DNA of 64,000 nt from Pseudomonas sp. DC1.2 (lineage in GTDB: Bacteria > Pseudomonadota > Gammaproteobacteria > Pseudomonadales > Pseudomonadaceae): the NCBI RefSeq assembly GCF_034351645.1, contig NZ_CP133782.1, forward strand, positions 2,733,001 through 2,797,000. Direction: 5' to 3'. This document shows, in pieces, positions 4,482 to 42,300 of the stretch. The notes beneath the pieces were generated by a model. The model made no database searches. It was not told the DNA's origin and saw only the letters and a list, made by a program, of their open reading frames with translations. Positions within the stretch are counted from its first letter, which is position 1, and each line of letters begins with the position of its first letter. Both the position numbers and the translations under genes were made by a program.

Positions 4482-4973
4482 AGGTTTTTCCTGCGAAGCA
4501 TTCAGAGTAGCTAGGGGTGCGGCAGTACCGATTCAGTACCCGGTTCCGGTATCCAAACCACGGGAAATGCATCCCGGTCAGAAGCGGAAGGTCCATCTGG
4601 CAATAAGTGGACAGCAGCAATGGAGCGCTTGGCCCGAGTGAAATTGCGCTGAGGCGGGATTCATTCCCGTCATCAACCAAGGGGGGCGCGTAATGTTTGG
4701 CGGCGATTGTACTGGTCTGGCTCTTTAAACGATAGGGCGTTGAGACCCTGCGAGCCCTTTGGTGGTATCAGCGGACAATTTTTAACAGCTGAAGGTTAAC
4801 TATTGGTTACAAACTGAGGCTAAAATGCCGCTTATTCGCCCGGCGCGTTTGCATGAACATGTGTTACAGATCGCCGTCGGGTTCGCTGTTTAGTATTTCA
4901 GATGCTGCATGACCCTTACGCCGCTTGGCTGGCCGTGGGCGCAGTTTTTTCATTTCTGACGTGTGACGATTTC
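4482..4973. other. Intergenic region between ybiT and lpxO
   Basis: About 490 bases separate the divergent ybiT and lpxO starts and must hold both promoters. A 71-codon minus-strand frame (4465-4680) reads into ybiT and looks like chance. No well-spaced -35/-10 pair, hairpin or repeat could be assigned with confidence. The final 72 bases (4902-4973) are in frame with lpxO and could be a longer N-terminus. Confidence 0.5.
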
Positions 4974-5873
4974 GTGAAACTGATCATTGCCGCTATTTAC
5001 GTTGTATCCATCGCGTATGTGCATCTTCGCGGTCGCGTGCGCCATAAGCTGGGTCGCCAACTAAGCGACCACTCGACTTTCCTGGCACCCATCAATTGCT
5101 TCCTGTATCTGTTCTCGAAAATCCCCGGGAAGCCTTACCTTGAGCCGGCTGACTTTCCAGACCTGAGCCCGTTGCAAGCTCATTGGGAAGACATTCGCAG
5201 CGAAGCCCTGAGCCTGCTCAGGGCGGGGGAGATCAAGCGTTCGGACCAATACGATGATGTGGGTTTCAACTCCTTCTTCAAGAGTGGCTGGAAACGTTTT
5301 TATTTGAAGTGGTATGGCGATAGCCACCCTTCGGCGATGAAACTTTGCCCGCGTACCACTGAACTTGTGCAAAGCATTGGTTCTATTAAAGCCGCTATGT
5401 TTGCCGAGCTGCCGCCGGGTTCCAAGTTGGTCCGCCATCGTGATCCTTATGCCGGTTCATACCGTTATCACTTGGGACTGGACACCCCCAACGACGCCGG
5501 TTGCTACATCAATGTTGACGGCGAGCATTACCATTGGCGTAATGGCGAAGCGGTGTTATTCGATGAGACGTACATTCATTACGCCGAAAACGCCACGCAG
5601 CAAAACCGCATCATTCTGTTCTGTGACGTCGAACGACCACTGAAATACCGCTGGGCGACAGCGCTCAACGGCTGGTTCAGCCGTAACGTCATGTCTGCCG
5701 CAGGCGCCCCCAACGAGGTGGGTGACAGGACCGGTGCGATCAATCGGTTGTTTACCAAAATTTACAAGGTTCGCCTGCGTGGCAAGGAACTGAAAAAACG
5801 TAACCGCGCCCGTTACTACCTTGAAAAATGGGTGATTTTTGGCGGGTTGCTGGCGTTTTTTGTGCTGATCTGA
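4974..5873 (+). CDS. lpxO: Lipid A 2-hydroxylase LpxO (aspartyl/asparaginyl beta-hydroxylase family)
   Basis: LpxO is an Fe(II)/2-oxoglutarate dioxygenase that hydroxylates the C2 of a secondary acyl chain on lipid A at the inner membrane. The chosen GTG start gives 299 residues starting (M/V)KLIIAAIYVVSIAYVHLRGR, which matches the start and length I recall for P. aeruginosa LpxO. An in-frame ATG at 4902 would add 24 residues with no family support. The iron/cosubstrate motif VRHRDPYAGSYRYHLGL and the distal YIHYAENAT...NRIILFCDVERP segment are intact. There is a hydrophobic segment at each end. Neither start has a strong ribosome site, so the start is uncertain; the function is fairly sure. 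Confidence 0.88.
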   Translation: MKLIIAAIYVVSIAYVHLRGRVRHKLGRQLSDHSTFLAPINCFLYLFSKIPGKPYLEPADFPDLSPLQAHWEDIRSEALSLLRAGEIKRSDQYDDVGFNSFFKSGWKRFYLKWYGDSHPSAMKLCPRTTELVQSIGSIKAAMFAELPPGSKLVRHRDPYAGSYRYHLGLDTPNDAGCYINVDGEHYHWRNGEAVLFDETYIHYAENATQQNRIILFCDVERPLKYRWATALNGWFSRNVMSAAGAPNEVGDRTGAINRLFTKIYKVRLRGKELKKRNRARYYLEKWVIFGGLLAFFVLI

Positions 5874-7625: not shown

Positions 7626-7640
7626 CGCGTTACTGATTGT

Positions 7641-7688
7641 GCCCACGCGCCGCCTCCCAAGAGGTCGTTAAGCGCCGGCGCGTGGGGC
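7641..7688. terminator. Long GC-rich inverted repeat between convergent genes
   Basis: GCCCACGCGCC (7641-7651) pairs with GGCGCGTGGGGC (7677-7688), enclosing a 25-nt loop, between two convergent genes. It lacks a T-run but is well placed as a shared transcription end structure. Confidence 0.45.
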
Positions 7689-7694
7689 CGATCT

Positions 7695-8792
7695 TCACTG
7701 TCGGCGATAGAGAATCACCGCTGCCCGCAACTTTCCTCTGCCGAAACTGCACATTTTCTCGAACTCCCCATGGCTGACCGGCAGATGCTGGCAGTCCATG
7801 GACTGGCGATGTTGACTGTGATCCACGTCTGGATCGTGCAGATAAACGAACTCTTCGTCGCAATCGGTGACCATCACCCAGTGCGGCGCCTTGGAGCGGG
7901 TCAGGCGATAGCTACTGATCAGCACCAAGGGCTGCCCGCCGTCATCCAGCAGCCTTGGCAAATCCAGTGGCCCGCCAATCGCTTGTTCGACGTCGGTGTC
8001 AAGTAACTGCCCCGTGAACTCCTCGTGTACCAGGCGCATTACGTCTTTTTTATGCTCGTCGCGCACCCCATCAAGAAACAGTGGCCCGGCCATGCTCAGT
8101 TGCAAACGCACGCGAAACCCGCGACGCCATGCCGCTAGTGCCAGCCCCTGAGGGCTGCAACCACCATGGCCCGATGTCATGAACACCGTGGTCGCCTCAC
8201 GCCAGATTTGCAGCTCTTCCCGACGCTCCAGCAACCGATCCTGTTGCAGCGCCCCCATCGCCATCAGCAGGCAGGCCGGGCCGCAGGTAAAATCGGTGGT
8301 CTGTTGATACCAGGGCACGTTGATGTTGCGCGAGTCGCGATGTTGCAGGATGCGTTTTTCCAGGCGCAGCGCGTCGGCATGGTCTTGGTAATAGTCATGA
8401 ATCAGGGCAAAACGGCGGTAACCGTTGCGTTCGTAAAGCGCAATGGCGGCCGGATTGTCGATGCGCACTTCCAGCCGTAAATAGGCGCAGTCGTGCTCCA
8501 GGGCGCAGGCCTCGATTCGTTCTAGCAATTGTTTGCCCAGTCCGCTACCGCGTGCCTGGGCAGCAATTGCAATTGAATAGAGCCGAGCCAACGACGTCCC
8601 ACGGTGGAACAACACCACGGCATAACCCACAAGATTTTCCTCGCGCTGTGCGACCAGCAACTGGCCGTGGGCACGGGTGATCATCCACTGAAAACTGCGA
8701 CTGTTGAGTCGATCCGTCGTGAAACACTGCTCTTCGAGTTCCAGCAGCGCCGGTAAATCTTCAACTACCGCCAAGCGAAATACAGTGTTCAT
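7695..8792 (-). CDS. GNAT acetyltransferase fused to C39-like cysteine peptidase
   Basis: Residues 1-150 form a RimI-like GNAT domain with the acetyl-CoA loop QARGSGLGKQLL (79-90). Residues 155-365 form a papain/C39-like peptidase domain with Cys170 (in TDFTCGPACLL), His304 (KAPHWVMV) and Asp320 (YLHDPD) as a likely catalytic triad. The ATG at 8792 gives 365 residues; a longer frame to 8879 adds 29 residues unlike GNAT starts. It is divergent from the ATP-grasp gene, 92 bases apart. From memory, comparative-genomics work on amidoligases linked RLAN/ATP-grasp genes with such GNAT-peptidase proteins, suggesting that one enzyme makes an amide or peptide link and the other trims or acetylates it. 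No substrate is known to me. Confidence 0.85.
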   Translation of the reverse strand: MNTVFRLAVVEDLPALLELEEQCFTTDRLNSRSFQWMITRAHGQLLVAQREENLVGYAVVLFHRGTSLARLYSIAIAAQARGSGLGKQLLERIEACALEHDCAYLRLEVRIDNPAAIALYERNGYRRFALIHDYYQDHADALRLEKRILQHRDSRNINVPWYQQTTDFTCGPACLLMAMGALQQDRLLERREELQIWREATTVFMTSGHGGCSPQGLALAAWRRGFRVRLQLSMAGPLFLDGVRDEHKKDVMRLVHEEFTGQLLDTDVEQAIGGPLDLPRLLDDGGQPLVLISSYRLTRSKAPHWVMVTDCDEEFVYLHDPDVDHSQHRQSMDCQHLPVSHGEFEKMCSFGRGKLRAAVILYRRQ

Positions 8793-8884
8793 ATGACCGC
8801 CGTAAAAGTTGCGTAACGAAACGGGACTTTCGAAAAAGTTCGTGCTTAATAGGAATGGTCTTGTTCTCCAACGGATCAATCACT

Positions 8885-10471
8885 ATGTCAGCGGTACAAG
8901 GTCATTGGCGCGAAGTATCCGAGCAAACTTTGCCGACAGCAATCACTTCTGCAACCTATTTAAATGATGCCCCTAGAACTTCAAGCCAATTGATTATCAT
9001 CGTCGAACGCAAGGAAGACTGGGCTTCGTACTTCCCCAGCGAGGACATCGTGACCGCTCAGGAATACCTCGAACAGACCCGCGATAACGAGCAAGGCAAG
9101 CGAGTCCAAGTAATTAATCTGTGCCGCAGCTACAAGTACCTTGGGCACGGTTACTACTGCTCCCTGCTCGCCGAAGCCCGAGGGCATAAAGTGATTCCTT
9201 CCGTGCGCACCATCAGCGAGCTGACGCGAAAGTCGCTGTATGGGTTGGCACTGGACGACCTGGATAAACCACTGGAAAAAGCCCTTAGTAATCACCTCTA
9301 CAGTGATACGGAAGGGTTTACCCTAACGCTTTATTTTGGCAAGACCAATATAGAGCCGTTGCAGGACTTGGCTCGGCAGTTATTTGAAGTCTTTCCGTGC
9401 CCAATACTGCTCGTTGAGTTTCGACGAACTAACGGCTGGCACATTGAAGGCATAAAGTCTGGCGCGCTGCATAAATTACGTGAAGATCAAGAAGATCAGT
9501 TCGCCAACTCTCTAGACAGTTTCAGTCGAAAAATCTGGCGCGTGCCACGCTCGCGGCAATTGGCCCGTTACGACCTGGCCATCCTGCATGACCCACAGGA
9601 AGCGTTGCCGCCATCCAACGCCAAGGCGCTGGATAACTTCGTCCGGGTCGGCAAAACACTGGGCATCGACGTCGAGCTTATTGAGCGCAAAGATTACGCT
9701 CGTATCGCCGAATACGACGGGCTGTTAATCCGCGAGACCACCAGTGTCGACAACCATACCTACCGCTTCGCCAAAAAAGCCGAGAGCGAAGGGCTGGTGG
9801 TGATGGACGACCCGGCGTCGATCCTGCGCTGCACTAACAAGGTCTACCTGACTGATTTGCTTAAAAGCCATCAACTGGGCATGCCCGCCACCGAAATTCT
9901 TTACAAGGAACGACCGGAAGACTTCGAACGAGTCGGCGAGCGCTTAGGTTTTCCACTGGTATTGAAAATTCCTGACGGCTGCTTCTCCCGGGGCGTCATC
10001 AAGGTCGAAAGTCAGCAAGCGCTGCTCGAAGCTACCGCTGAGCTGTTCGAACACTCGGTGCTGTTGCTGGCCCAGGAATTTTTCTACACCGAGTACGACT
10101 GGCGTATTGGCGTGCTCAACCGCAAACCGATCTTCGCCTGCCAATACTTCATGTCCAAAGGTCACTGGCAGATCTACAACCACAAGGCCAAAGGTCAGGA
10201 CGTCAATGGAGAATGCCGCACGCTGGCGGTCCACGAAGCGCCGCGAGCAGTGGTCGAACTTGCGGTGAAGACGGCCAACTTGATCGGCGATGGCCTGTAC
10301 GGCGTTGACCTCAAGCAGTCCGGCGACAAAGTGGTGGTGATCGAGGTCAACGACAACCCGAACATGGACGCCGGCATCGAAGACGCCTACTTGCAAGACG
10401 ACTTGTACTCACTGGTCCTTGAAGAGTTCGTCCGACGTCTGGAACTCAAACGGCGTGGTCAAGCCTGGTGA
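8885..10471 (+). CDS. RimK-like ATP-grasp ligase with N-terminal RLAN domain
   Basis: The ATG at 8885 gives 528 residues. Residues 30-190 resemble the RLAN domain found before RimK-like ATP-grasp modules (QLIIIVERKEDWASYFPSEDIVTAQEYL; NLCRSYKYLGHGYYCSLLAEARGHKVIPS). The C-terminal half is an ATP-grasp domain. It has the nucleotide-binding segment LVLKIPDGCFSRGVIKVE, EFFYTEYDWRIGVLN, and the metal site VIEVNDNPNMDAGIED. Such enzymes join a carboxylate to an amine through an acyl-phosphate; RimK itself adds glutamates to ribosomal protein S6, but this is a different, larger family whose substrate is unknown. The CorA-family gene starts 8 bases after its stop, so they form an operon. Confidence 0.88.
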   Translation: MSAVQGHWREVSEQTLPTAITSATYLNDAPRTSSQLIIIVERKEDWASYFPSEDIVTAQEYLEQTRDNEQGKRVQVINLCRSYKYLGHGYYCSLLAEARGHKVIPSVRTISELTRKSLYGLALDDLDKPLEKALSNHLYSDTEGFTLTLYFGKTNIEPLQDLARQLFEVFPCPILLVEFRRTNGWHIEGIKSGALHKLREDQEDQFANSLDSFSRKIWRVPRSRQLARYDLAILHDPQEALPPSNAKALDNFVRVGKTLGIDVELIERKDYARIAEYDGLLIRETTSVDNHTYRFAKKAESEGLVVMDDPASILRCTNKVYLTDLLKSHQLGMPATEILYKERPEDFERVGERLGFPLVLKIPDGCFSRGVIKVESQQALLEATAELFEHSVLLLAQEFFYTEYDWRIGVLNRKPIFACQYFMSKGHWQIYNHKAKGQDVNGECRTLAVHEAPRAVVELAVKTANLIGDGLYGVDLKQSGDKVVVIEVNDNPNMDAGIEDAYLQDDLYSLVLEEFVRRLELKRRGQAW

Positions 10472-10478
10472 GCGGTCG

Positions 10479-11402
10479 ATGATCAAGAGCTTTCAGCTGA
10501 TTCAAGGCGCGCTCCACGCCGTCGATAGGCTTGATGCGCAAGTGATGCTGTTCAGCAACCCCGATGCCGCCGAACGGGACGTGTTGTACAGCGATTTCAA
10601 ACTCGATGAACACGCGCTGGCTTCAGCGCTTGATCCTGACGAGGTGTCGCGCATCGAGTTTCACCCCGACAATCTGTTTCTGATTTGGAAACGCCCGGAA
10701 AACTACTCCGGTGGCGGCAGCCTGTCGTTCGAAGTGTCGTCTTGCGGTTTGCTGTTTTCGGCGCAGCGTCTGTTGGTGATCGCAACCGACGACTCGCCCC
10801 TGCATGGGCTGGGTACCAGGCAGCGACTGAACACGCCGCTGGATGTGTTGCTGGATTTGCTGTTCAACAATATCCATCACTACTTGGGTCACCTCAAGGT
10901 GATCAAACTGGTTGCCCGGGAGTTGCAGCAGAAATTCAACGCTTCGATGCAAAACCAGCACCTGATCCAGATGTTCAACCTCAGTGAAAGCCTGATCTAT
11001 TACATCAACGCCATCCACAGTAACGGCGCTGTGCTGACCCGCCTGCGCAACCACGCAGAAAAGGAACACTTCAGCGCCGAGTCCCTCAGCCTGATTGACG
11101 ACTTGATCATCGAAAATAACCAGTGCTACAAACAGGCGGAAATCTATTCCACGGTGTTCTCCGGGCTCATCGACGCCCGGGGCAACCTGATGAACAACAG
11201 CATGAACAACCTGTTGCGCAAACTGACATTGATCAACGTGGTGTTTTTGCCACTGAACCTGATCGCGAGCATTGGTGGCATGTCGGAATTCAGCATGATG
11301 ACGTCCGGAACGCCTTGGTGGGTGTCGTATCCGCTGTTTCTGACGGTGATGCTGTTGGGGGCCGGGGGGATGGTGCTGGGTCTCAGGCGGTTGGCGAGAT
11401 GA
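10479..11402 (+). CDS. CorA-family membrane transporter with GMS instead of GMN
   Basis: This 307-residue protein has the CorA layout: a large cytoplasmic domain, a long helix, and two C-terminal membrane helices (NVVFLPLNLIASIGG, and VSYPLFLTVMLLGAGGMVLGL). The ATG at 10479 is 8 bases after the ATP-grasp stop and has GAGCGG upstream. The signature between the helices, normally (Y/F)GMN, reads GGMSEFSMM, so the pore-mouth Asn that contacts hydrated Mg2+ is Ser. It is probably a divalent cation transporter, but its ion may differ from Mg2+. Its place in an operon with an ATP-grasp enzyme suggests that it serves that enzyme's pathway or supplies its metal. Confidence 0.85.
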   Translation: MIKSFQLIQGALHAVDRLDAQVMLFSNPDAAERDVLYSDFKLDEHALASALDPDEVSRIEFHPDNLFLIWKRPENYSGGGSLSFEVSSCGLLFSAQRLLVIATDDSPLHGLGTRQRLNTPLDVLLDLLFNNIHHYLGHLKVIKLVARELQQKFNASMQNQHLIQMFNLSESLIYYINAIHSNGAVLTRLRNHAEKEHFSAESLSLIDDLIIENNQCYKQAEIYSTVFSGLIDARGNLMNNSMNNLLRKLTLINVVFLPLNLIASIGGMSEFSMMTSGTPWWVSYPLFLTVMLLGAGGMVLGLRRLAR

Positions 11403-11484
11403 TTGCCTCACCTTTTAGGCCGCCATTGCGAGCTGACTCGCGATTAGCCAATGCGCTGTACGGCCTCCTGGTATGCGAAATACG

Positions 11485-11810: not shown

Positions 11811-12293
11811 TTATTCCTGAACGGCGTTCTCGACCTTGCCGGAGGCCGACCAAATCCGATAGCGAACTTCCACGTCTTTGGGCACATAGAGCACGATAGG
11901 CAACTTGCTGTTATAGCGCAGCATGAAGCCATCACCGACCACCGCTACGAAGTCTTTTCTACGTTTGCCATCGGGGCAGGCCATCAGTGTGCTCATCGGA
12001 CCGATGACGGTTTCCAGTCGGTAGAAAGGATAGCCCCAGCCCTCAAGGTTTTTCTCTTCAAGCATGCCACCCAGGCGCTGCCGATTGCAGTCGACGGACA
12101 ACGTCTTGCCGGCCAAAATCTCGACCTGATAGGCGTCTTCCTGATTTTGAGCGGGAAGGTGAATGACCTGGCGGGTAAAACCGTTTTCAGGGTTGGGAAA
12201 CGGCGCAACCTCTTCGAGTTTCGCGGCATGGGCAGCGCACGATAGCCCGGCAACAATCAGCCCGACGGTCGTGTGTAAAGTCAAAGAACCCAT
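11811..12293 (-). CDS. eco: Ecotin, periplasmic serine protease inhibitor
   Basis: The ATG at 12293 follows a strong AGGAGG and gives 160 residues (E. coli ecotin has 162). Residues 1-22 form a signal peptide ([13 protein letters not shown]). The reactive loop [10 protein letters not shown] keeps Met as the P1 residue with the flanking Cys, and the second Cys (SVDCN) that forms the disulfide is present. The conserved [25 protein letters not shown] block follows. Ecotin dimers block trypsin, elastase and related proteases in the periplasm, protecting against host or predator enzymes. Confidence 0.93.
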
Positions 12294-12679
12294 ATTGCCT
12301 CCTTGCTTGTGTGGTTGGGCGGCGGATACTTGAAACGCCTGCGCGCATTCTTGCTGCCGCGTGTGGGCAATGTAAACCGGACTGTGGGAGGGTTGCGAAT
12401 TGCAGTGCCAAATAAGGATGTTCTTGCACATTGCATGAGGCCATTTGCTTGCTATTTGGCTAAGCCATTGATTCTTCTATAACGCACACAGCGAAATGTT
12501 CGGCATGATCTATGCTCTATTTTGTTCTTAAGCTGACCTGCGATTCATATTGAGTCGGCGTTGAAGCACAAGAACGAACAGTAGCTGAAGTGACGTGACC
12601 CGCATGGAAACAGCGGGTGATTTCAGCACTGATCGATATTTATGTTGATTGGCTATCTCACAATAAGGAGAGGGTCGCC
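12294..12679. other. Intergenic region, divergent ecotin and DUF1652 promoters
   Basis: About 385 bases lie between two divergent starts. Overlapping in-frame extensions of ecotin and of the DUF1652 gene reach into it but lack family support. No hairpin, repeat or clear operator was recognised. Confidence 0.4.
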
Positions 12680-14757: not shown

Positions 14758-15741
14758 TTATAACTTGTCAGGGAAGAAGGACAGTGGGGGATGAGAGTCT
14801 TTCCACTCTTTAGAAACCATTTTCGCTTTTTCTATTTGCTTCGGACTCATTTTGTCGGAAATGTTGGGAAGTACATAGTTCACGTAGTCCGGCATTCCTC
14901 CGCCACCATCTAACTCAAGCAGTAGATGAAGTAATGCATAAGATTTGACCGGGTCATAAGTGTATCCGAACTCTGATGATTCCTTTCCTATGTCAGATCC
15001 ATATCCAAATATTGCCGTTGCGTAGCCAGTTTCTGCCGCTTTCTCGTTCCAAAATCTAAATCCTTGCAGGTCCTTTTTTTCCGCCAAAATTGCCCCGTAT
15101 TCCAACATTCCTTGTGGATAACCCCCTTCAGCGGAAGCTTTCATTAAACGCTCAACAACTTCTGCCCGACTGGATGGTAATATAAAAAAGCCTCGGCCTT
15201 CACGATAGCTGACCCCTAAAAAATATTGCGCAAATGCGTAACCTTTTTCAGCGGATTTTTCCAGCCATTTATCATCGCCAGTAACTATAAACATAAGATA
15301 CATCGCTTCTGCGTTCCCCTTCGCAGCTTCTACGCCTGCAGTATCTATAGCCATTTTTCCCCATTCGCCAGGTTCTTTTCTACCTTTAGGACAGTTGCCC
15401 ATAGCAACGCAGAGATCATTTTTCTCTCCCGCAAGTCTTATCATTGAGTATATATCGCCTTGGAGCGCCGATGCTTCATACGCGCTTAGTGCTTCAGGTG
15501 TCATATATTTTTTATTTTTGCGAATGGCTTCGCCGAGATAATATTGGGCCTCGTGATCGCCAGCATCTGCAGCAATTTTTAGCTGTGGTGTCGCGGATAT
15601 AGCTTTGAACTGATTGTACAGTTCTATTCCCTTGTTTTTGGCTGCTAGCTGATCTTGGGAAAGCTCTGCTTGCACATTAGTGCTAAAAAATAAAATACAA
15701 AGTAAAAAACTAAGGGCGGATTTCAATTTTGATGATTTCAA
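14758..15741 (-). CDS. Periplasmic Sel1-repeat protein, candidate immunity to the adjacent T6SS effector
   Basis: This 327-residue protein has a signal peptide (MKSSKLKSALSFLLCILFFSTNVQA) and several Sel1-like repeats with the A-x-x-G-x-x-x-A-Q-Y/M-x-L-G pattern: LKIAADAGDHEAQYYLGEAI, AEKGYAFAQYFLGVSYREG, KASAEGGYPQGMLEYG, AAETGYATAIFGYG. The start is 12 bases after the effector stop on the same strand, so they are in one operon. Sel1-repeat proteins encoded next to T6SS effectors are often their immunity proteins. Export to the periplasm implies that the effector acts in the periplasm or on the membrane. The gene is visibly AT-richer than flanking genes, consistent with transfer. No test of binding is possible from sequence. 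Confidence 0.75.
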   Translation of the reverse strand: MKSSKLKSALSFLLCILFFSTNVQAELSQDQLAAKNKGIELYNQFKAISATPQLKIAADAGDHEAQYYLGEAIRKNKKYMTPEALSAYEASALQGDIYSMIRLAGEKNDLCVAMGNCPKGRKEPGEWGKMAIDTAGVEAAKGNAEAMYLMFIVTGDDKWLEKSAEKGYAFAQYFLGVSYREGRGFFILPSSRAEVVERLMKASAEGGYPQGMLEYGAILAEKKDLQGFRFWNEKAAETGYATAIFGYGSDIGKESSEFGYTYDPVKSYALLHLLLELDGGGGMPDYVNYVLPNISDKMSPKQIEKAKMVSKEWKDSHPPLSFFPDKL

Positions 15742-15753
15742 TTAATGAGTTCC

Positions 15754-18700
15754 TTAAGGGCCGATATATTTCATGGTGCTGAAAGGAAGGTACCTGTTTT
15801 CATGGAGGTCGAATTTGCAGGATCCATCAAGACGTTGCCCAAGCTTTTTGACATTATCCTTGTACATAGCTCTATCGATATCACCTTCTTGCCGTGATAG
15901 ACGTAATACGGCATTTGCCATGAAGATGTCTAATTTGTGTTTGTTTTCGCAGTATGCTTGCCCGGGATTTTTCTCTTGGGTGCCAAATTTGTTCATGGAC
16001 TTACACGCGTCTTCGAATTGCTGTTGAGCCAAGAGCAGCGTCCCGGTTTTTTGAGAGTTCGTTGTTATCCAGCTGATTATTCTATTGATGGCTCTTTGTT
16101 GCAGTAGACAAGCTTGATCTCGACTGTATTCCTTTTTCACATCTTTAGACGTGCCATCGCTATTGCTAATTGTAGTCACGTTGAAACCTTTCGGATCCGA
16201 TATCAGTGTCATAAGAATTGGCCCTAACGCCTCCGGTGTTGCTTCCACGAACCACTGTCTCAATTCATCCTGGTTTTCATATTCAACGATGGTATGAGCT
16301 ATAGCTCCACCCTTACCCGCACTTGTCATCGCCTCATAGAGATTCATAATGGCATCTATCCCCATCATGTAAACCATAGCGACATCAAGCCCAATTGCAC
16401 CCAACGCATTCAGATTGGAAGCCTGCTCAGCCGCCTCCGGCGTAATCCAACTAATCGAAGCGCCCTTGGCCTTATACAACTCACGCCGATAGATATTGAT
16501 TAGCTCTACAACAGCCTCATAACCCACCTCAAATTTGAAACCACCACTTGCGCCCGGTCCGAGCACAACGGTTGCTTTCAAATTAAGGATGAATTTGCCC
16601 TTATCCAGTGATATTTGAGCGTTGCCCTGCACACCCGCGCCATACGCGGCGCCTGCGGAGCCACTAAGGTTGGCAAGCGTCAGCCATTGGCTGGCGCTAG
16701 TAGCCTCTTTGCTGTTGTTAACACCGGTTGAAGGGGCTGAGCGCAACGCGGCCAGCGCTTTCGGTGGAGCCCAGTTCAAGGCTCCCGTCAGTTCGATGCC
16801 CGCTTGTACACCCGCGAACAAATTGAAGTTGGCTTTTATGCCATTTTCAATTTGTACGTTGGCTGCTTTGCCCGTCATGACTTGGCCCGAGGATTTGGTC
16901 TCGACTTTAGTCATCTCGCCCTTGGATTTGTATTCAAGGTCTGGAGTCGGGCTGGTATCGCCATTGGCGGCTTTGGTTTTGATAGTTTCTTCGTGGGTCG
17001 CTCTTTCGGCCCTCGCTTCAGCATCTTCGCGTTGTGCAGGTTTGACAGGGCTGAGTGTCGCCCCGTATTTGGCGTTGCCGTTTATCGGGGACAGTTCAAT
17101 GCTACCGGCGAGCATGAGCGACGCACCGGCGTATCCCCATGCACGGGCGCCGAAGTGGAAGGACATGCGGCCGAGGTTCAAGGTTTGAAGCTGAGGATTA
17201 CCTTCAAGGTAGTAATCGATGGTTACGTCTTTGGCCTTCTCGCGCTCTGGCATGTCGACTTTCAGTAGTTCAACTTCACCGCGCGCCAGGTCATAGCTCA
17301 GCGATGCGCTGGTCGAGATCTTGAAGCCTTCAGCGGCAGAGAAAGAGGGGCCTTCCGCCTTCACTTCGCCATGCAGTTTTTTCTGCGGAGGGGCCAGGCA
17401 GCGGACGAATTGAGCTTGCGGGCTATTGTCAAAAAGCCTCACTTCGCCGCGAATGCTCTTTTTGAAGACGACCTGCTTGAGATGCTCGCCCCATTCTTTG
17501 CGTTTGCCGGCATCTTCGAGCTCAGTGACTTTGTAGCCACTGCTGTCCAGGAACTTGTAGAACTCGTCGATGTTGAACCAGCCAGTGGTGTCAAACCAGT
17601 CGCCGACCTGGTCGCCAATTCTTAGCGCACCCTGGCTTTCCAGCCACTGCCCAAATACCTTCTGCGCGCTGTTTTTACTGGCACCGCCATCACCGTTCTT
17701 GGGGATGCCTTCAATTTTTCCGACTTTCTTCGCAGCTTTTTCCATGTCTTCTTTTAGAAGTTTTGGCACACCCCTGATGTTCAGCAAGCTGAGCCATCTT
17801 AGCGGCGTGCCGCTTGCGCTGAGCGTGCTGACTTCCCTGAGCGGAAAGCCATCCTTGACCAAGCGATCAATAGGCTGCGGCTCAAACTGTTCTGGTTCCC
17901 AGAGCAAGTGACGTCGAACGGTATCGGCAGCGACTTTTTGCTTGGCTTTTTCATGCAAACCTTGTTTTACGGTTTGCAAACGGTCCCATTCAGCACGTTC
18001 GACTTCGACTAACCCGGCCGGTGCCTGGGCGTTTTGCCCCGTCGCTTCGATCCAGTTTTTGTATTTTTCACGCAGCCGAGTGTTGATCTCCGATTGCCGT
18101 TTTTCAGTGTCGAGGTACAACTTGAACTGCTCGATCCCCGTGGTGATGTCATCACCGCTGATCAGCGCGAACTCAGGCAATGCAAGCCCGTATTCCGATA
18201 CTTTGGCAATCGAATCGGTGTATTCGTGATAGGCGAACGACTTGGCTTCGCCGTGCTTCCATGCCAGATAGGCGTAAGTGTCGCCTTCGCAGGTTTGGAG
18301 GCATTTCTGCAGTTCGTCACGCTTTTTCTTGTCTGTTTCCAGGAGTTTGGCGATGTCTTCCTGCGCCTGTGGCGCGATTCCGCCTTCACTGATCAGCGTC
18401 TTGCGTTTTTCCAGGTAGTTTTGAACACGTGCGCGGGCTTCAATGGCCCCTGCGGAAAACAATGCCCCGTTCTCATAGGTATTACCTTTTTCTTTTGCCG
18501 CGGCGATGGCCAGTTTCTTAAGTTCAAGATACTCACGACGTAACTTAATCAGTGCGCTGTAATCGTCGTGAATACGGTTTTGACCATCAATCTCCGACTG
18601 AAGTTGGTCGATACGCGAGCGTTGAGTATTAACTTTTGGCTCTTCGGCCTTTGGCGTCTCTTTTTCTTTTGCGAGTTTTACTTCTTTGCGGCTGCGAAGG

Positions 18701-19131
18701 ACCATGCCTGGGTCCATCTCGATATTCGGTTCCTGAGCTTCAATCGCCTCCATTCGCTGGCGCTGTTCGCCTTGGAGGAAAGTGCTGAGCTTTGGCTCAA
18801 GGAAGTATTCCAGTAATCCGCTCTCGTCTAATCCCTTAATGCGTGCGTCACGGGACTTACTCGGTGCAATCTGATTTTCCAGAGCATGCATGGCTTCCTT
18901 CATCGAGGAGGCAGCGCGCTCGGGCAGCAGCCAAAACTCTTGCTCTTCAGTTGCATAAATTGCAGTGCCGAATGTATTGGAGCAAGGCTTGGGTTGATCC
19001 TTGTGGTTCGTAGTACATGCTTCTGTGAAGTCTTTTTTCGGCCCCAGGTTCAGGGGGGCTGGCCCGGGCGCTGTCGCTGATTGTTTGGTAGTTTCCATGA
19101 TGCTTCCGTTCTGTTGTTGCGTCGGGTTCAT
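15754..19131 (-). CDS. Large candidate type VI secretion effector, unrecognised family
   Basis: The protein has 1125 residues. Residues 1-90 are Pro/Ala/Cys-containing; residues about 150-420 are highly charged and helical (KEVKLAKEKETPKAEE, LRREYLELKKLAIAAAKEKG). Residues about 600-870 look beta-rich (GARAWGYAGASLMLAGSIELSP, SGSAGAAYGAGVQGN). Residues about 905-945 are hydrophobic (GAIGLDVAMVYMMGIDAIM), and the C-terminus is helical with several Cys. The ATG overlaps the DUF4123 stop (ATGA), a second start at 19098 is possible. Position after vgrG and a DUF4123 adaptor, before a periplasmic candidate immunity gene, is the basis for calling it an effector. I do not recognise a nuclease, lipase or peptidase motif. 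The hydrophobic region would fit a membrane-disrupting toxin. Confidence 0.75.
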   Translation of the reverse strand: MNPTQQQNGSIMETTKQSATAPGPAPLNLGPKKDFTEACTTNHKDQPKPCSNTFGTAIYATEEQEFWLLPERAASSMKEAMHALENQIAPSKSRDARIKGLDESGLLEYFLEPKLSTFLQGEQRQRMEAIEAQEPNIEMDPGMVLRSRKEVKLAKEKETPKAEEPKVNTQRSRIDQLQSEIDGQNRIHDDYSALIKLRREYLELKKLAIAAAKEKGNTYENGALFSAGAIEARARVQNYLEKRKTLISEGGIAPQAQEDIAKLLETDKKKRDELQKCLQTCEGDTYAYLAWKHGEAKSFAYHEYTDSIAKVSEYGLALPEFALISGDDITTGIEQFKLYLDTEKRQSEINTRLREKYKNWIEATGQNAQAPAGLVEVERAEWDRLQTVKQGLHEKAKQKVAADTVRRHLLWEPEQFEPQPIDRLVKDGFPLREVSTLSASGTPLRWLSLLNIRGVPKLLKEDMEKAAKKVGKIEGIPKNGDGGASKNSAQKVFGQWLESQGALRIGDQVGDWFDTTGWFNIDEFYKFLDSSGYKVTELEDAGKRKEWGEHLKQVVFKKSIRGEVRLFDNSPQAQFVRCLAPPQKKLHGEVKAEGPSFSAAEGFKISTSASLSYDLARGEVELLKVDMPEREKAKDVTIDYYLEGNPQLQTLNLGRMSFHFGARAWGYAGASLMLAGSIELSPINGNAKYGATLSPVKPAQREDAEARAERATHEETIKTKAANGDTSPTPDLEYKSKGEMTKVETKSSGQVMTGKAANVQIENGIKANFNLFAGVQAGIELTGALNWAPPKALAALRSAPSTGVNNSKEATSASQWLTLANLSGSAGAAYGAGVQGNAQISLDKGKFILNLKATVVLGPGASGGFKFEVGYEAVVELINIYRRELYKAKGASISWITPEAAEQASNLNALGAIGLDVAMVYMMGIDAIMNLYEAMTSAGKGGAIAHTIVEYENQDELRQWFVEATPEALGPILMTLISDPKGFNVTTISNSDGTSKDVKKEYSRDQACLLQQRAINRIISWITTNSQKTGTLLLAQQQFEDACKSMNKFGTQEKNPGQAYCENKHKLDIFMANAVLRLSRQEGDIDRAMYKDNVKKLGQRLDGSCKFDLHENRYLPFSTMKYIGP

Positions 19132-19994
19132 TGGGGATTGGCGGATGCGATTTGCATCAGCTGTTCAACCTTGATGAACGACTCTTCCTTGGATTGCAGG
19201 ATGGCAATGGCTTCTGGTCTTGTTTCAAGCGGCGGTCCGTTAACCACCGAGGCCAGCTTGAGAAGATGGTCACCTTCGTAGATGTTGTTTTTTAGCAAAA
19301 GATCCAGGTTCTCAGCAATTTCATTGATCCGGTCGTCACCCGGTTCACCGAATGCTGCATATTGCTCATCGACCCAGTACAGCCAACCCAGCCGCGCTTG
19401 AATCTTTGCTGCGTTGTCGGGCAGGTTAAACGCCGGGCCGTCGCCATGCCATATCGGTTCCTTGTCGGCCATCCACGACAGCCAGGCGCCGCGCTCCCTA
19501 CCGAAGTGGCTGGGTGAAGGGCTGTAGACCGCTTGCCAAGGACCGAATAGTTGAATCGACGTGTCGCCAGCGGTATAGGCCAGCGCGGCCCAAAGGCTTG
19601 GTTTGTGATAGCTGAGCAGGCTCTGGCCGCCGGAGCCGTCGTTGGCTTTCAGTAACCAACGCGCATGCGCGAGGGCCAGATTGGCATCTTCTGAAGTCAG
19701 GGCAATTCCTGAATGGTTTTCTTCGCACAGTCGCGCGGCCTCGGCTGCCAACTGGCTACCCCACGGTGCGGTCAGCCACAGGGGACCTTCATTGACGATA
19801 TCGGCAAACTCAGTGCTGCTGAACAAGGCTTGAGCATTCATCGGTTCGCCGACGCGATAAAGGCACGACATGGCCTCGGGCTGGCGTCCGCGATCTATGA
19901 TGAAACACAGAACCTGATTGGACTGTTCCCTCGGCAGCGACTCGAATTCATAACGAGGTGCGGCCAGTAGGGCGTTCATCGCGGTTACATGCAT
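19128..19994 (-). CDS. DUF4123 T6SS effector adaptor/chaperone
   Basis: The ATG at 19994 has AAGGA six bases upstream and gives 288 residues; a TTG at 20000 is also in frame. The N-terminal half has the DUF4123 pattern: FIIDRGRQPEAMSCLYRVGEPMNAQALF, GPLWLTAPWGSQLAAE, SLLSYHKPSLWAALAYTAG, and FGPWQAVYSPS. DUF4123 proteins (also called TEC or Tap) load a specific effector on its VgrG and are not themselves secreted. It overlaps vgrG upstream by 10 bases and the effector downstream by 4, so the three genes are translationally coupled. Confidence 0.88.
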   Translation of the reverse strand: MHVTAMNALLAAPRYEFESLPREQSNQVLCFIIDRGRQPEAMSCLYRVGEPMNAQALFSSTEFADIVNEGPLWLTAPWGSQLAAEAARLCEENHSGIALTSEDANLALAHARWLLKANDGSGGQSLLSYHKPSLWAALAYTAGDTSIQLFGPWQAVYSPSPSHFGRERGAWLSWMADKEPIWHGDGPAFNLPDNAAKIQARLGWLYWVDEQYAAFGEPGDDRINEIAENLDLLLKNNIYEGDHLLKLASVVNGPPLETRPEAIAILQSKEESFIKVEQLMQIASANPQ

Positions 19995-22033
19995 GTGCAA
20001 TCCTTACGGCTGCAAGCGCCGTTGCTCTGTTTGCCGCACAACGGCGTGATACCTGACTCGTTGAGGCGGGAAGGGAGAGGGGCTTTGCCCGCGACATCTG
20101 CAGCCGCCACCTTCATCGGTCCCGGCAATAATGGTGCAGCCGGCGTCCCCGACCCCGGAGAACCGCCCGAGTTGGTCTTGACCTGCGCGCCACTAATCGT
20201 TACGCCACCGGCGTCGATTTTGACGAAACTGCCGCCTGCTTTGGCTGTCAGTTCCATGCCGCCTTCCACGACTACTTTTTCCCCGGCGTTGTAGTGGATC
20301 TCGGTGCCGGCCTCGACAAACTGAGCCGTTCCGACTTTCAGGTGCCGGGTTACGCCCACGGTCAGGTGGTCGTCTGCGCGCGCTTCAGTCTTGCGATCCA
20401 GATACGTGATTCGATGCTCTTCGACCTTGAATTCGCTGAAGGCGTTGGCCTCGACGGTGTCGTGCCGTTCATTGCCGATGTGGATTTTCTGGTCGTGCTC
20501 GATGCTTTCATCCCAGTCGCGCTGGGCGTGGAGGTAGATCTGTTCCGCGCCTTTTTTGTCTTCGATGCGAAATTCGTTGTAGCCCTTGCCTCCCGGTGAG
20601 CTGAGCGTCTTGAAGGTGCTGCGGGTTTTGTTGGCTGGCAGGTCGTAGGGCACGACGTTTTCTTTGTGGTACAGGCAGCCGGTGATCAGCGGCTTATCTG
20701 GATCACCTTCCATAAACGACACCAGCACTTCCATGCCGATGCGTGGGAGGGTGATGCCGCCGTAGGCATTACCCGCCCAACCGGTGGCGACGCGCAGCCA
20801 GCAGGTGGTGTTTTCGTCACCCTGGCCGTCGCGATCCCAGAAAAACTGCACTTTGACGCGGCCATATTGGTCGGTGTGAATTTCTTCGCCGGCGGGGCCG
20901 GTAACGATGGCGGTCTGGCTGCCGAGGACTTTGGGTTTCGGGTGTTCGAGGGCAGGGCGGTAGTGCGCGTCCCACGGGGTGGCGAGGAAACGGTTGCGGT
21001 AGCCCTGGTGGAAATCGTCTTTGTCGTCGGTGACGTCGCTGGTGATGTTTTCGCTGAGTACTTGCGGCTGTTTACCCTCGTGGATGACTTCGAGCAGTAA
21101 CCACAGGTCGTTCCATTCGGCGCGCGGGTGTTCGCCCAGCGTCATGAAGTGGCCGCTGGCCAAGGTCGGCTCGTCGCCTTTGCCTTCGGCGAGTTTGTAG
21201 TCGCTGCGATGGCGCTCTAGTGCGCGGGTCGCCAATTGCTTGCCGCGCTCGCGGTCGGTGAAGCGGCCGGGGTAGTCGTAGTCTTCCAGGTCAGGCGCGA
21301 ACGCGCTTTTGGCGGCGCCTTCCGGGAGGATGCGCGGTTTTTCAAAATCGTAATCGCGGCGGCTGACGCGGGTGGTGCGGGTTTCAAGGCGTAGGTTGAA
21401 GCGCTTGATCACCGGTTTCTCGGCGGCCATCCCGGAGTCTTGCTGGTAGACCACGGGCGCCAGTTTGCGAAACACGGTCTGGTCATCGCCGAACACCAGT
21501 TTGTGTCCGCTGGCCGAGTGCTGGAAGTGGAAGTGAATGCCTTCTTCTTCGCACAGGCGCTGGATGAAATGCAGGTCGGACTCGTCGTACTGCACGCAGT
21601 AGTCGCGTTCCGGGTAGGTCGCGCCAAGCTGGAAGTTGTAGGCGTCGGACAGAATGCCCCGGGCTTCCAGGACTTGAGCGATGATCTTCGGCACCGGTAA
21701 GTGCTGGAAGATCTGCTGGTCATGGTTGTGCCGCAGGTAGGCGAGTTGCGGAACCAGGCTGATGCTGTAGCGAGTCAGCTTCTTGCCGGAATCACCTTGT
21801 TCAATGCGATAGACCAGGCCGTGGATGATGCCTTTGCCGGTGGCGCCGAAGGTCAGGCAGCCGGGCTTGTGCAACAGCTCTTCAAGTTTCAGGTCGGGGC
21901 GCGCGCTGACCAGTTCGATGTCAAAACAGAACGGTTGGTTGAGGGCTTCGCGACCGACGAAACTGAGCACTTGCAGGTCGGCGGAAACGCCTTCGAGCGT
22001 GAGGGAAATATGGGTTGCGTTCGCGTCCAGCAT
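19985..22033 (-). CDS. vgrG: VgrG, type VI secretion spike protein
   Basis: The protein has 682 residues and the full VgrG core: gp27-like N-terminus (SFVGREALNQPFCFDIELVS, FIQRLCEEEGIHFHF), then gp5 OB fold and spike (DQYGRVKVQFFWDRDG, CWLRVATGWAGNAYGG, LPRIGMEVLVSFMEGDPDKPLITG, RIEDKKGAEQIYLHAQRDW). After the beta-helix a short Cys-rich tail ends CGKQSNGACSRKDCTCM; it has no toxin domain. Trimers form the puncturing tip of the T6SS. No hcp, sheath or baseplate genes are nearby, so this is an orphan vgrG island that must use a T6SS encoded elsewhere. A perfect palindrome lies 95 bases upstream. Confidence 0.95.
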   Translation of the reverse strand: MLDANATHISLTLEGVSADLQVLSFVGREALNQPFCFDIELVSARPDLKLEELLHKPGCLTFGATGKGIIHGLVYRIEQGDSGKKLTRYSISLVPQLAYLRHNHDQQIFQHLPVPKIIAQVLEARGILSDAYNFQLGATYPERDYCVQYDESDLHFIQRLCEEEGIHFHFQHSASGHKLVFGDDQTVFRKLAPVVYQQDSGMAAEKPVIKRFNLRLETRTTRVSRRDYDFEKPRILPEGAAKSAFAPDLEDYDYPGRFTDRERGKQLATRALERHRSDYKLAEGKGDEPTLASGHFMTLGEHPRAEWNDLWLLLEVIHEGKQPQVLSENITSDVTDDKDDFHQGYRNRFLATPWDAHYRPALEHPKPKVLGSQTAIVTGPAGEEIHTDQYGRVKVQFFWDRDGQGDENTTCWLRVATGWAGNAYGGITLPRIGMEVLVSFMEGDPDKPLITGCLYHKENVVPYDLPANKTRSTFKTLSSPGGKGYNEFRIEDKKGAEQIYLHAQRDWDESIEHDQKIHIGNERHDTVEANAFSEFKVEEHRITYLDRKTEARADDHLTVGVTRHLKVGTAQFVEAGTEIHYNAGEKVVVEGGMELTAKAGGSFVKIDAGGVTISGAQVKTNSGGSPGSGTPAAPLLPGPMKVAAADVAGKAPLPSRLNESGITPLCGKQSNGACSRKDCTCM

Positions 22034-39341: not shown

Positions 39342-42300
39342 ATGACGTCTGCGTCCGCGGTTGACGAGCAACGATTCCGTAAACTTCTGGCCCGCAACGT
39401 CAGCTTGCCGCTGGGTGTGGGTGTGCTCAGTGCGGTTTTCTTCGTGTCGCTCATTACTTATCTGTTGTCCGTTATCCAGTGGGTCGAACACACGGACCGA
39501 GTGATCAATAATGCCAATGAAGCGGTGAAGCTAACCGTTGATCTGGAAACCGGGATGCGCGGCTTTCTGCTGAGCGGCGACGAGCACTTTCTTGATCCCT
39601 ATGAAACGGCGAAGCCGAGAATAGCGGTCGCACTCAATACCTTGCTTGAACTGACGGCCGACAACCCGGTGCAGACTGACCGTCTGCGCCGGCTTCAGGC
39701 GTTGCAGACGGAATGGGCTGCCTACGCGCAATCGATGATCGATCTACAGCGCTCCAGTGGCGACTACCGGGCAGCGGTCAAGGCCGGGCATGGCAAGCGG
39801 TTGACCGACGAGATTCGCAATCAGTTTGACGACGTGATCGACATGGAGCAGCAGTTGCGCGTTACGCGTAACGAAGACGTGCGCCGTACCACGATCTGGA
39901 GCATCACCCTCTACTTGTTATTCGTGGCGGGTATCAGCGGTTTGCTGGCTTTTATTGGCCGGCGCGACTTGCTCACCCTGTCGCAGAGCTACAGTGCCAA
40001 CCTTGCTGCGCAGCAGGCCAGCGCCGAGCGTCTGGAGAAGCAAGCCTGGTTGCGCAGTGGCCAGACTGAATTGGCAGAGCAGGTGCTGGGGCAATTGACC
40101 CTGAACCTGCTGGGCCGAAATATTCTGCAGTTTTGCGCACAGTATCTAGGCACCGCGGTGGCCGCCATTTATGTGCGTGAAGAACACGGTGGCCTTAAGC
40201 GTGTTGCCTCCTATGGCCTGTCCCGCGAGCAGGAACTACAGGAACAGACCCTTTACAGTGGCGAAGGGATTGTCGGACAGGCCGTGCAGCAGGCGCAATT
40301 GATTCGCCTGGACAATGTGCCGGCCAATTACTTCAAGATCAGTTCTGGTCTTGGCGAAGGCTTGCCACACAGTGTGCTGGTGGTGCCGACCACTGACGAC
40401 GACCAAGTGAACGGCGTGATCGAATTGGGCTTCCTGCGCCCCTTGAACGTGCGCGACATTGAATTGCTTGAGCTGATCGCCGGTAACATCGGGACCTCAA
40501 TCGAAGCCGCCCGTTATCGTCAGCGTTTGCAGGAAGTGCTGGCTGAAACCCAACAACTCAACGAGGAGTTGCAGGTTCAGCAGGAGGAGATCAAAACCGC
40601 CAACGAAGAGCTGGAAGAACAGTCGCGAATTCTCAAGGAGTCTCAGGCACACCTGGAAACCCAGCAGGTTGAGCTGGAGCAAACCAACGAGCAACTCGCC
40701 GAGCAGGCCCAGACCCTGGCCGAGCAACGCGATGCCATGGACCTGAAAAACACTGAACTGAATCAGGCCCAAGTCGAACTTGAAGAGCGCGCGCAAGAGC
40801 TTCAGCGCTCAAGCAAGTACAAGTCCGAATTTCTCGCCAACATGTCCCATGAGCTGCGCACGCCGCTGAACAGCTCGTTGATCCTGGCCAAGTTACTGGC
40901 AGAGAATCCTCAGGAAAATCTGAGCGCCGAGCAGGTCAAATTCGCCGAGTCGATCTACTCGGCGGGCAATGATTTGCTCAATCTGATCAACGACATTCTC
41001 GATATTTCCAAAGTTGAAGCCGGCAAGCTGGAAATGCGCCCGGAAAACACCAGCGTGGCGCGACTGGTGGACGGTCTGCGCGGAATGTTCGAGCCGATGG
41101 CGGCAGACAAGAAGCTGGCATTCCACGTCGAGTTGCAGCCCGGTGCGCCAATGATGCTGTTCACTGACCGTCAGCGATTGGAGCAAGTCATCAAGAACCT
41201 GCTCTCCAACGCAGTGAAGTTCACCGAAACGGGGACTGTCAGTCTAACGGTCAGTGCGCAGCCAGGCGATGGCATTGCCTTCATCGTTCGAGACTCCGGG
41301 ATTGGCATTGCAGCGGATCAGTTGGAGAGCATTTTCGAAGCCTTCCGCCAGGCCGACGGCACCACCAACCGCCGCTATGGCGGTACGGGACTGGGGTTGT
41401 CGATCTCCAGGGATTTGGCCAATTTGCTGGGCGGTTCCATCAGCGTCACCAGCGAACCCGGAGAGGGCAGCGTGTTTACGCTGGTGTTGCCACAACAGTA
41501 CGTCGAACCGGGTGAGGAGCGTGTCGAGCCGATGCGAACCATTGCGGTAGCCACCGCGGCACCCGTGGCCGCGGCTCCGGTGCCGCTGATCGCTGAAGTC
41601 GATATCCCACGATTTGACGATGACCGTGCCCAGGCGCCGTTCACCACCCGCTGCATCCTGGTGGTGGAAGACGAGGCAAATTTTGCGCATATCCTCTACG
41701 ACCTGGCCCACGAATTGGGCTATCAGTGCCTGGTAGCGCACGGCGCGGACGAGGGGTATGACCTGGCCAGGGAGTTCATACCGGATGCCATTCTGCTGGA
41801 CATGCGTTTGCCAGACCATTCGGGGCTCACTGTGCTACAGCGGTTGAAAGAACATGCGCAAACCCGACATATCCCGGTTCACGTGATCTCCGTCGAGGAC
41901 CGTGTGGAAGCGGCGATGCACATGGGCGCCATCGGTTATGCGATCAAACCGACCACCCGTGAAGAGCTGAAGGACGTGTTTTCCCGCCTGGAAGCCAAGC
42001 TGACGCAGAAGGTCAAACGCATCCTGCTGGTGGAAGACGATGACTTGCAGCGCGACAGCATTGCTCGTCTGATCGGCGACGATGACATCGAGATCACTGC
42101 CGTTGGCCTCGCCCAGGATGCCTTGGACTTGCTGCGCACCACTGTTTTCGACTGCATGATCATCGACCTCAAACTGCCAGACATGCTCGGCAATGACCTG
42201 CTCAAACGTATGTCGACTGAGGACATTTGTTCCTTTCCGCCAGTGATCGTCTACACCGGGCGTAACCTGACGCGGGATGAAGAGACCGAACTGCGCAAGT

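Follow-up and report, generated by a model that had tools for sequence, protein, structure and literature searches.

A linked GNAT and RLAN/ATP-grasp ligase pair with an optional C39-like peptidase in Pseudomonas and other Pseudomonadota

Introduction

ATP-grasp ligases such as RimK, LysX and the D-Ala ligases activate a carboxylate with ATP and join it to an amino acid or amine. In glutathionylspermidine synthetase/amidase, an ATP-grasp-like ligase is joined to a papain-like amidase that reverses its reaction. Here we describe a unit of different families and different fusion, found in a 64,000-nucleotide stretch (the window) of the Pseudomonas sp. DC1.2 genome, a single contig of 5.82 Mb (assembly GCF_034351645.1, contig NZ_CP133782.1, positions 2,733,001 to 2,797,000). 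An ATP-grasp ligase with an RLAN domain lies divergently from a gene that fuses a GNAT acetyltransferase to a DUF3335, C39-like peptidase, and is followed by a CorA-family gene. Judged by sequence comparison across genomes, the ligase and the GNAT are the old core of this linkage, with the peptidase domain as an optional layer.

The trio for N-acetylglutaminylglutamine amide (NAGGN; asnO, ngg and a peptidase gene, PA3459-PA3461; TIGR03103) resembles this unit in co-encoding GNAT, ligase and peptidase activities; as the available part of PMC8070244 describes it, Ngg acetylates a glutamine and links it with a second one, and an aminopeptidase gene completes the operon. TIGR03103, however, holds GNAT and ligase in one chain. 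In the present unit the two are encoded separately, the ligase is of another kind and bears RLAN, and a C39-like domain stands where NAGGN has its aminopeptidase. The source genome (G000) also carries an NAGGN synthetase gene, at C1:3934428-3936050. RimK and RimB of Pseudomonas likewise combine a RimK-like ATP-grasp ligase with an opposing peptidase, according to the available parts of PMC11957791 and PMC12239564. RimB, however, is an aspartic retropepsin and the peptidase here is of the cysteine type; the window ligase does not reach the RimK cut-off and is preceded by an RLAN domain, and the PF05618 genes of the source genome lie elsewhere. Against the LysX/ArgX amino-group-carrier ligases, the RLAN domain falls outside the aligned part. 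The rlo operon of P. aeruginosa (RloA, RloB, RloC) also places an ATP-grasp protein and a peptidase together, but there an aspartic protease accompanies an inactive-transglutaminase membrane protein, and the available part of PMC12239564 mentions neither GNAT nor RLAN.

An earlier note on this DNA, made from sequence alone, stated that comparative genomics of amidoligases had predicted the domain association. This is probably right: the available part of PMC10318531 notes frequent fusions of DUF3335 members with GNAT domains, citing Iyer et al. (2009), who probably predicted the association in part. The GNAT–DUF3335 association itself is therefore not new.

Results

Genes and domains were identified by Pfam and NCBIfam profile cut-offs, and the starts in the open reading frame (ORF) list were judged too early. 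The three genes, their domain pairs and their divergent layout, as read in the earlier note, were borne out by Pfam scores and coordinates (Table 1). The ligase carries an RLAN domain (181.4 bits, cut-off 25) and then a RimK domain (36.8 bits, cut-off 21), which together place it among the RLAN-bearing ATP-grasp ligases (PF14401 plus RimK domain). It lies outside the RimK subfamily TIGR00768 (77.5 versus 143.4 bits), and NAGGN synthetase (TIGR03103) is absent among the 25 matches listed of the 26 families found for it. Five ATP-grasp residues, K329, K371, D485, E497 and N499 (numbered from ATG 8855), are invariant in 33/33 and 63/63 ligases. Fold-search lists were filled with ATP-grasp proteins, the closest structures to the ligase domain being LysX, ArgX and RimK; the RLAN profile found no match under E 0.29 among Protein Data Bank sequences. 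We discarded the idea that RLAN is a duplicated pre-ATP-grasp domain, as profile comparison gave it probabilities of just 0.1 and 0.2%. P. laurylsulfatiphila has a ligase 97% identical to that of the window. A Pseudomonas-like copy was also seen in a record titled Pantoea sp. Cy-639 (L154), whose ligase is 74% identical to the window's and sits within the Pseudomonas part of the tree; it is either a transfer or a mislabelled record.

The divergent gene encodes both DUF3335 (293.7 bits, cut-off 25) and GNAT (65.1 bits, cut-off 20.7) in a single chain, and its profile score and Cys-His-Asp triad place the product among the DUF3335 C39-like peptidases (PF11814). The earlier note had named the triad as Cys170, His304 and Asp320. 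Cys170 and His304 are invariant in 23/23 class sequences (set A1) and in 37/37 window-plus-named sequences (set A5), and Asp320 is kept in 22/23 (with one Glu) and 37/37, respectively; this conservation argues that the triad is genuine and under selection. Both sets also keep Gln164 without exception, and it may plausibly serve as the oxyanion residue. The AlphaFold2 model of the whole protein has a mean pLDDT of 90.0, and the nearest structures to the GNAT domain are N-terminal acetyltransferases (Ard1/RimI), in a fold list that barely probes the C39 half. Against the RimI equivalog TIGR01575 (cut-off 86.4) the protein scores 89.1 bits, but a solo relative only 85.8. A true RimI function is doubtful because this GNAT is fused to a peptidase and adjoins a ligase, although automatic annotation may label it as RimI. 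Its score against NAGGN synthetase (TIGR03103), 26.5 bits for a cut-off of 569, leaves it outside that family. The peptidase family has a second context at L095:2017-13397, where two DUF3335 proteins without a Pfam GNAT match lie away from RLAN and have an oligopeptide-type ABC ATPase, a LysR regulator and two solute-binding proteins as neighbours.

Linkage was followed in 143 genomes of the class, 59 Pseudomonas genomes, 299 genomes of the phylum and 80 named loci. At the level of the class, RLAN was found in 34/143 genomes and DUF3335 in 27, four of them with short, weak partial matches that were dropped. All 23 genomes with strong DUF3335 matches carry RLAN, adjacent in 22 and on another contig in G060, so that the counts for both, DUF3335 only, RLAN only and neither are 23/0/11/109 (Fisher p = 1.3e-18). 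The corresponding counts for the phylum are 46/1/10/242 of 299 (p = 4.5e-43); because related genomes are not independent, both p-values overstate the evidence. The 11 other RLAN genomes of the class comprise one whose ligase adjoins a solo GNAT (L034), nine with the arrangement that we call type II, described below, and one with neither (L051).

Within Pseudomonas, RLAN occurs in 28/59 genomes and DUF3335 in 25/59, each of the latter being an RLAN genome with the two genes adjacent on opposite strands. In the three other RLAN genomes (G159, G182 and G189), the GNAT gene is still in its usual position but shorter, with the peptidase part gone. Across the phylum, 56/299 genomes have RLAN and 47 have DUF3335. 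Adjacency, judged by coordinates, holds in 44 of the 46 genomes with both, the DUF3335 frames being at least 361 aa except for one clipped at a contig start. One exception, G385, has ligase and GNAT–DUF3335 on different contigs; the other, G205, has its GNAT–DUF3335 gene elsewhere, adjoining a DUF2817-cluster gene. A solo GNAT adjoins the ligase in all 10 RLAN genomes lacking DUF3335, in G205, and at 3/3 second RLAN copies that were fetched (three genomes of the same family). Altogether, 55 of the 56 ligase genomes have a neighbouring DUF3335 gene (44) or solo GNAT (11), and DUF3335 itself is adjacent in 22/34, 25/28 and 44/56 ligase genomes of the class, genus and phylum.

The named loci are the best 80 of at least 583 relatives (among at least 591 pattern matches in a scan with alignment A3), an uneven sample of those nearest to the query; most come from Pseudomonas, Lysobacterales, methylotrophs and other Gammaproteobacteria, and a few from elsewhere. 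GNAT is present in 73 of these 80 ligase loci, 45 of them with DUF3335; the other seven show no GNAT within reach, and four of the seven have less than 0.9 kb of upstream sequence. The GNAT–ligase pair is found in no fewer than four arrangements, as the two genes may run co-directionally, converge, diverge, or diverge around an inserted gene. Thus, homologues are not scattered without linkage and the triad is not unconserved, the two outcomes that the earlier note had said would refute it. The three-gene linkage that it wanted surveyed is broadly conserved for ligase and GNAT, but the CorA gene was seen only in Pseudomonas.

The peptidase domain is missing in 26 of the 71 assessable GNAT-bearing loci among the best 80 named (28 before exclusion of L099 and L123, which stop before the peptidase region). 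We built a tree of 119 ligases (33 from the class including the window, 16 from the phylum, 62/80 named and 8/12 from the genus); it was a quick tree with no bootstrap and several long branches flagged. On it, leaving out L099, L123 and six unclassified rows, the solo-GNAT state requires nine changes, and the starred branches force at least six changes. The tree by itself cannot separate gain of the peptidase from loss, but solo-GNAT forms of Pseudomonas are nested among fused ones, which makes loss the easiest reading. Because the peptidase is repeatedly absent while GNAT and ligase persist, the stable unit is GNAT plus ligase, with the peptidase as an accessory that can be dropped.

Type II is a sister form: at its nine loci in the class, a stand-alone C39 peptidase lies upstream of the ligase in place of GNAT. 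In the tree, eight type II sequences all lie to the same side of a branch whose support is 100% in the Shimodaira–Hasegawa-like approximate likelihood ratio test. GCS2 and FGase genes, both of small-molecule families, follow the ligase in 7/9 of these loci; of the remaining two, L054 is ended by a contig edge and L059 shows neither gene. Selected type II proteins were identified by Pfam, and the others were assigned by tblastn matches to them. A different partner, a gene of about 370 aa, appears in 16/134 loci, and in most of these it separates GNAT–DUF3335 from the ligase; the four of the 16 run against Pfam all matched DUF2817, one of them also matching AstE/AspA and M14 profiles. We rejected the RimB-like retropepsin PF05618 as a partner, as it occurs in 65/143 class genomes and its three source-genome copies are far from the window. 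At L051:1539-5753, a ligase without GNAT or C39 has a radical SAM gene on one side and a BioA-like aminotransferase gene on the other, neighbours that may be there by chance.

The third gene of the window unit starts directly downstream of the ligase as the earlier note said, but 7 rather than 8 bases past its stop. Its product belongs to the CorA superfamily (PF01544; 114.6 bits, cut-off 27) and lies outside the CorA Mg/Co transporter equivalog (TIGR00383; 71.3 versus 200.75 bits). The canonical CorA motif is GMN, in place of which 28/28 full-length Pseudomonas sequences, at least two of them from the same locus, have GGMSE; one more sequence, ended by a contig edge, was not among the 28. By these sequence features, the window protein is a divergent CorA-family member.

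An orthologue lies directly 3' of the ligase in 25/28 ligase-bearing Pseudomonas genomes, including G153, whose copy is broken between two frames. Of the remaining three, G148 and G182 lack it, and all that G194 shows is a weak stretch interrupted by stops. The 31 Pseudomonas genomes without RLAN contain no full-length orthologue, only a 34-residue match in G144. Among the best 80 named loci the gene is found in 17, all within the 24 titled Pseudomonas, seven of which show none. By tblastn it was not found in 31/31 other class loci or in 52/52 named loci not titled Pseudomonas, each offering 1.2 kb or more of downstream sequence. A pair of ORFs that lie about 6 kb from one ligase and match CorA distantly was not scored as linkage. 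Since the gene was seen only in Pseudomonas and has GMS for GMN, we place it outside the core, and the step of moving an ion that the earlier note assigned to it is weak. It looks like a local Pseudomonas addition to the unit. A working role for it as a third member, in which it would import a metal for the module or export the module's product, would fit its close tie to the ligase within Pseudomonas, but we consider this doubtful given its absence from the loci beyond that genus and from the seven Pseudomonas-titled loci.

The most likely start of the GNAT–DUF3335 gene is ATG 8792, which reproduces the Cys170/His304/Asp320 numbering; the ligase starts at ATG 8885, with an alternative at 8855, and the CorA gene at ATG 10479. 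The region between the divergent genes is likely a shared promoter/operator region. It holds a 15-bp dyad, GTTGCGTAACGAAAC, retained in most but not all of 26 Pseudomonas-type loci. The genome has one exact copy of the dyad and three further sites at one mismatch, fewer than for a reversed control; we therefore dropped the idea of a regulon and keep the dyad as a weak local feature.

Table 1. Features of the unit, in window coordinates
Feature	Position	Strand	Basis or remark
GNAT–DUF3335 fusion gene, 365 aa	7695..8792	-	Pfam/NCBIfam, homologue alignments, AlphaFold2 model
RimI/Ard1-like GNAT domain, residues 1-150	8343..8792	-	constant partner of the ligase
DUF3335 C39-like peptidase domain (Cys170, His304, Asp320, Gln164), optional	7710..8318	-	PF11814, 293.7 bits
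RLAN + RimK/LysX-like ATP-grasp amide ligase, 528 aa	8885..10471	+	538 aa if ATG 8855
RLAN domain	9056..9508	+	PF14401
ATP-grasp catalytic domain, invariant Lys, Asp, Glu, Asn	9836..10369	+	PF08443
CorA-family membrane protein, GGMSE motif, Pseudomonas-only neighbour	10479..11402	+	PF01544, 114.6 bits
Divergent intergenic region	8793..8884	.	alignment of 26 Pseudomonas-type loci, conserved
15-bp dyad GTTGCGTAACGAAAC, weak local operator candidate	8808..8822	.	genome match and alignment

By Pfam, the unit is flanked upstream by a glucose/sorbosone dehydrogenase gene and downstream by NIPSNAP and ecotin genes. The ecotin-family protease inhibitor gene (11811-12431, minus strand) adjoins the NIPSNAP gene just downstream of CorA; in the relative L070 the ecotin match is in two pieces, with the middle part absent. 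Further upstream is an aspartyl/asparaginyl beta-hydroxylase family gene (4902-5873, plus strand), found near the unit in 3/12 Pseudomonas loci searched. Elsewhere in the window, a VgrG-type gene (19985-22033) is followed on the minus strand by a 1125-aa ORF (15754-19131) and a 327-aa ORF (14758-15741), both without a Pfam match, and 14758-22033 resembles a type VI secretion vgrG island whose accompanying proteins are unclassified. At 39342-42830 (plus strand) lies a gene for a large hybrid histidine kinase, in which CHASE3, GAF and receiver domains were matched.

Discussion

The earlier note had suggested that the three genes form a module for an amide-linked product. Its linkage of ligase and acetyltransferase across families stands, but the peptidase step is not obligatory and CorA is outside the core. 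As our best explanation, held at even confidence, we propose that a pathway to a short, N-capped peptide metabolite has GNAT and ligase as its working core, with the C39 domain serving turnover. The RLAN/ATP-grasp enzyme would activate a carboxylate with ATP and couple it to an amino acid or amine, and the RimI/Ard1-like GNAT would acetylate the free alpha-amine of the product or of its precursor. Where present, the C39-like domain, through Cys170, His304 and Asp320, could re-cleave the amide or transfer an acyl group, and so provide turnover. In type II loci the N-cap would come from the gamma-glutamyl ligase GCS2, replacing acetyl-CoA, and FGase, or the M14-like DUF2817 in another lineage, might remove the cap or an end residue. 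Pseudomonas would have added the divergent CorA-family protein downstream, perhaps for ion or product balance.

That the product would be a small N-capped peptide is suggested by the NAGGN precedent (PMC8070244) and from a comparative proposal, in the available part of PMC4431377, that products of another ATP-grasp group may be capped by a linked GNAT. Partners such as DUF2817 and the oligopeptide-type ABC and solute-binding genes would also suit small peptides more than a protein target.

Several observations weigh against this proposal. NAGGN synthetase scores above its cut-off in 57/59 Pseudomonas genomes, which makes the module no simple substitute and rules it out as an NAGGN replacement; the two genomes without it, G148 and G149, both carry RLAN, and are too few to interpret. 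A query with the GNAT–DUF3335 protein found no match in the flanks of 9/9 type II loci, a negative that also serves as a modest internal control. GCS2, FGase and DUF2817 are each confined to a minority of loci. DUF3335 occurs without RLAN in G206, in extra copies in G389 and G466, and in the control Methanosarcina acetivorans, and ligases without a GNAT nearby are seen in L152, L168 and L174 (named loci with at least 3.3 kb upstream) and in L051 of the class. Finally, RimI and RimK, to which the two enzymes are most closely related, act by modifying proteins, and protein tagging would fit these likenesses equally well.

The substrates of RimI and RimK are ribosomal proteins, so a cycle of protein tagging and untagging, although we judge it unlikely, stays the main rival and a serious one. 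Here the ligase would extend a protein C-terminus as RimK does with RpsF, the GNAT would acetylate an N-terminus, and the C39 domain would untag in the manner of RimB. The GNAT score above the RimI cut-off, the Ard1/RimI-like structure and the RimK/LysX-like ligase all suit this scheme, as does the description, in the available part of PMC11957791, of RimK and RimB as a working ligase/protease pair in Pseudomonas. Against it, no target gene stood out among the recurrent neighbour clusters, few of which were identified; the peptidase state flips at least six times on the tree with GNAT and ligase remaining together; and the type II partners are from small-molecule families.

Shared regional ancestry of unrelated genes would account for the further neighbours that several Lysobacterales loci have in common, but it is highly improbable for a pair that recurs in at least four layouts and that G060 and G385 both hold on separate contigs. 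Slimmer still are the chances of a ribosomal peptide (graspetide-like) pathway, in which the ligase would crosslink a precursor peptide and C39 would cut its leader: ATP-grasp ligases and C39 peptidases both occur in such pathways, but the peptidase is often absent here, and between the genes from 7626 to 11484 no gap exceeds 92 bases, where a precursor peptide gene would not fit (no search was made for one elsewhere, and the neighbour clusters, built from ORFs of at least 90 aa, are blind to short precursor ORFs).

To the known GNAT–DUF3335 association we add the division into a constant GNAT–ligase core and a peptidase that may be absent, the exchange seen in type II, the lineage with DUF2817 and a CorA gene seen only in Pseudomonas among the examined loci, although Iyer et al. 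(2009) may already list some of these associations. Returning to a capped-peptide pathway, we tentatively extend it to a widespread and so far unrecognised class of N-capped peptides, acting as osmolyte, redox or signalling compounds, made by RLAN ligases with two interchangeable caps and with C39 as a removable recycling part. If true, that class would reach about one-fifth of the sampled Pseudomonadota genomes, with an acetyl cap added by GNAT in type I and a gamma-glutamyl cap by GCS2 in type II. RLAN ligases are common, in 34/143 class and 56/299 phylum genomes, yet we found no experimental test of one, or of a GNAT–DUF3335 protein, in the open-licence literature searched. The constant GNAT, the dispensable peptidase and the GCS2/FGase version turn an unknown ATP-grasp operon into a testable question about capped peptides.

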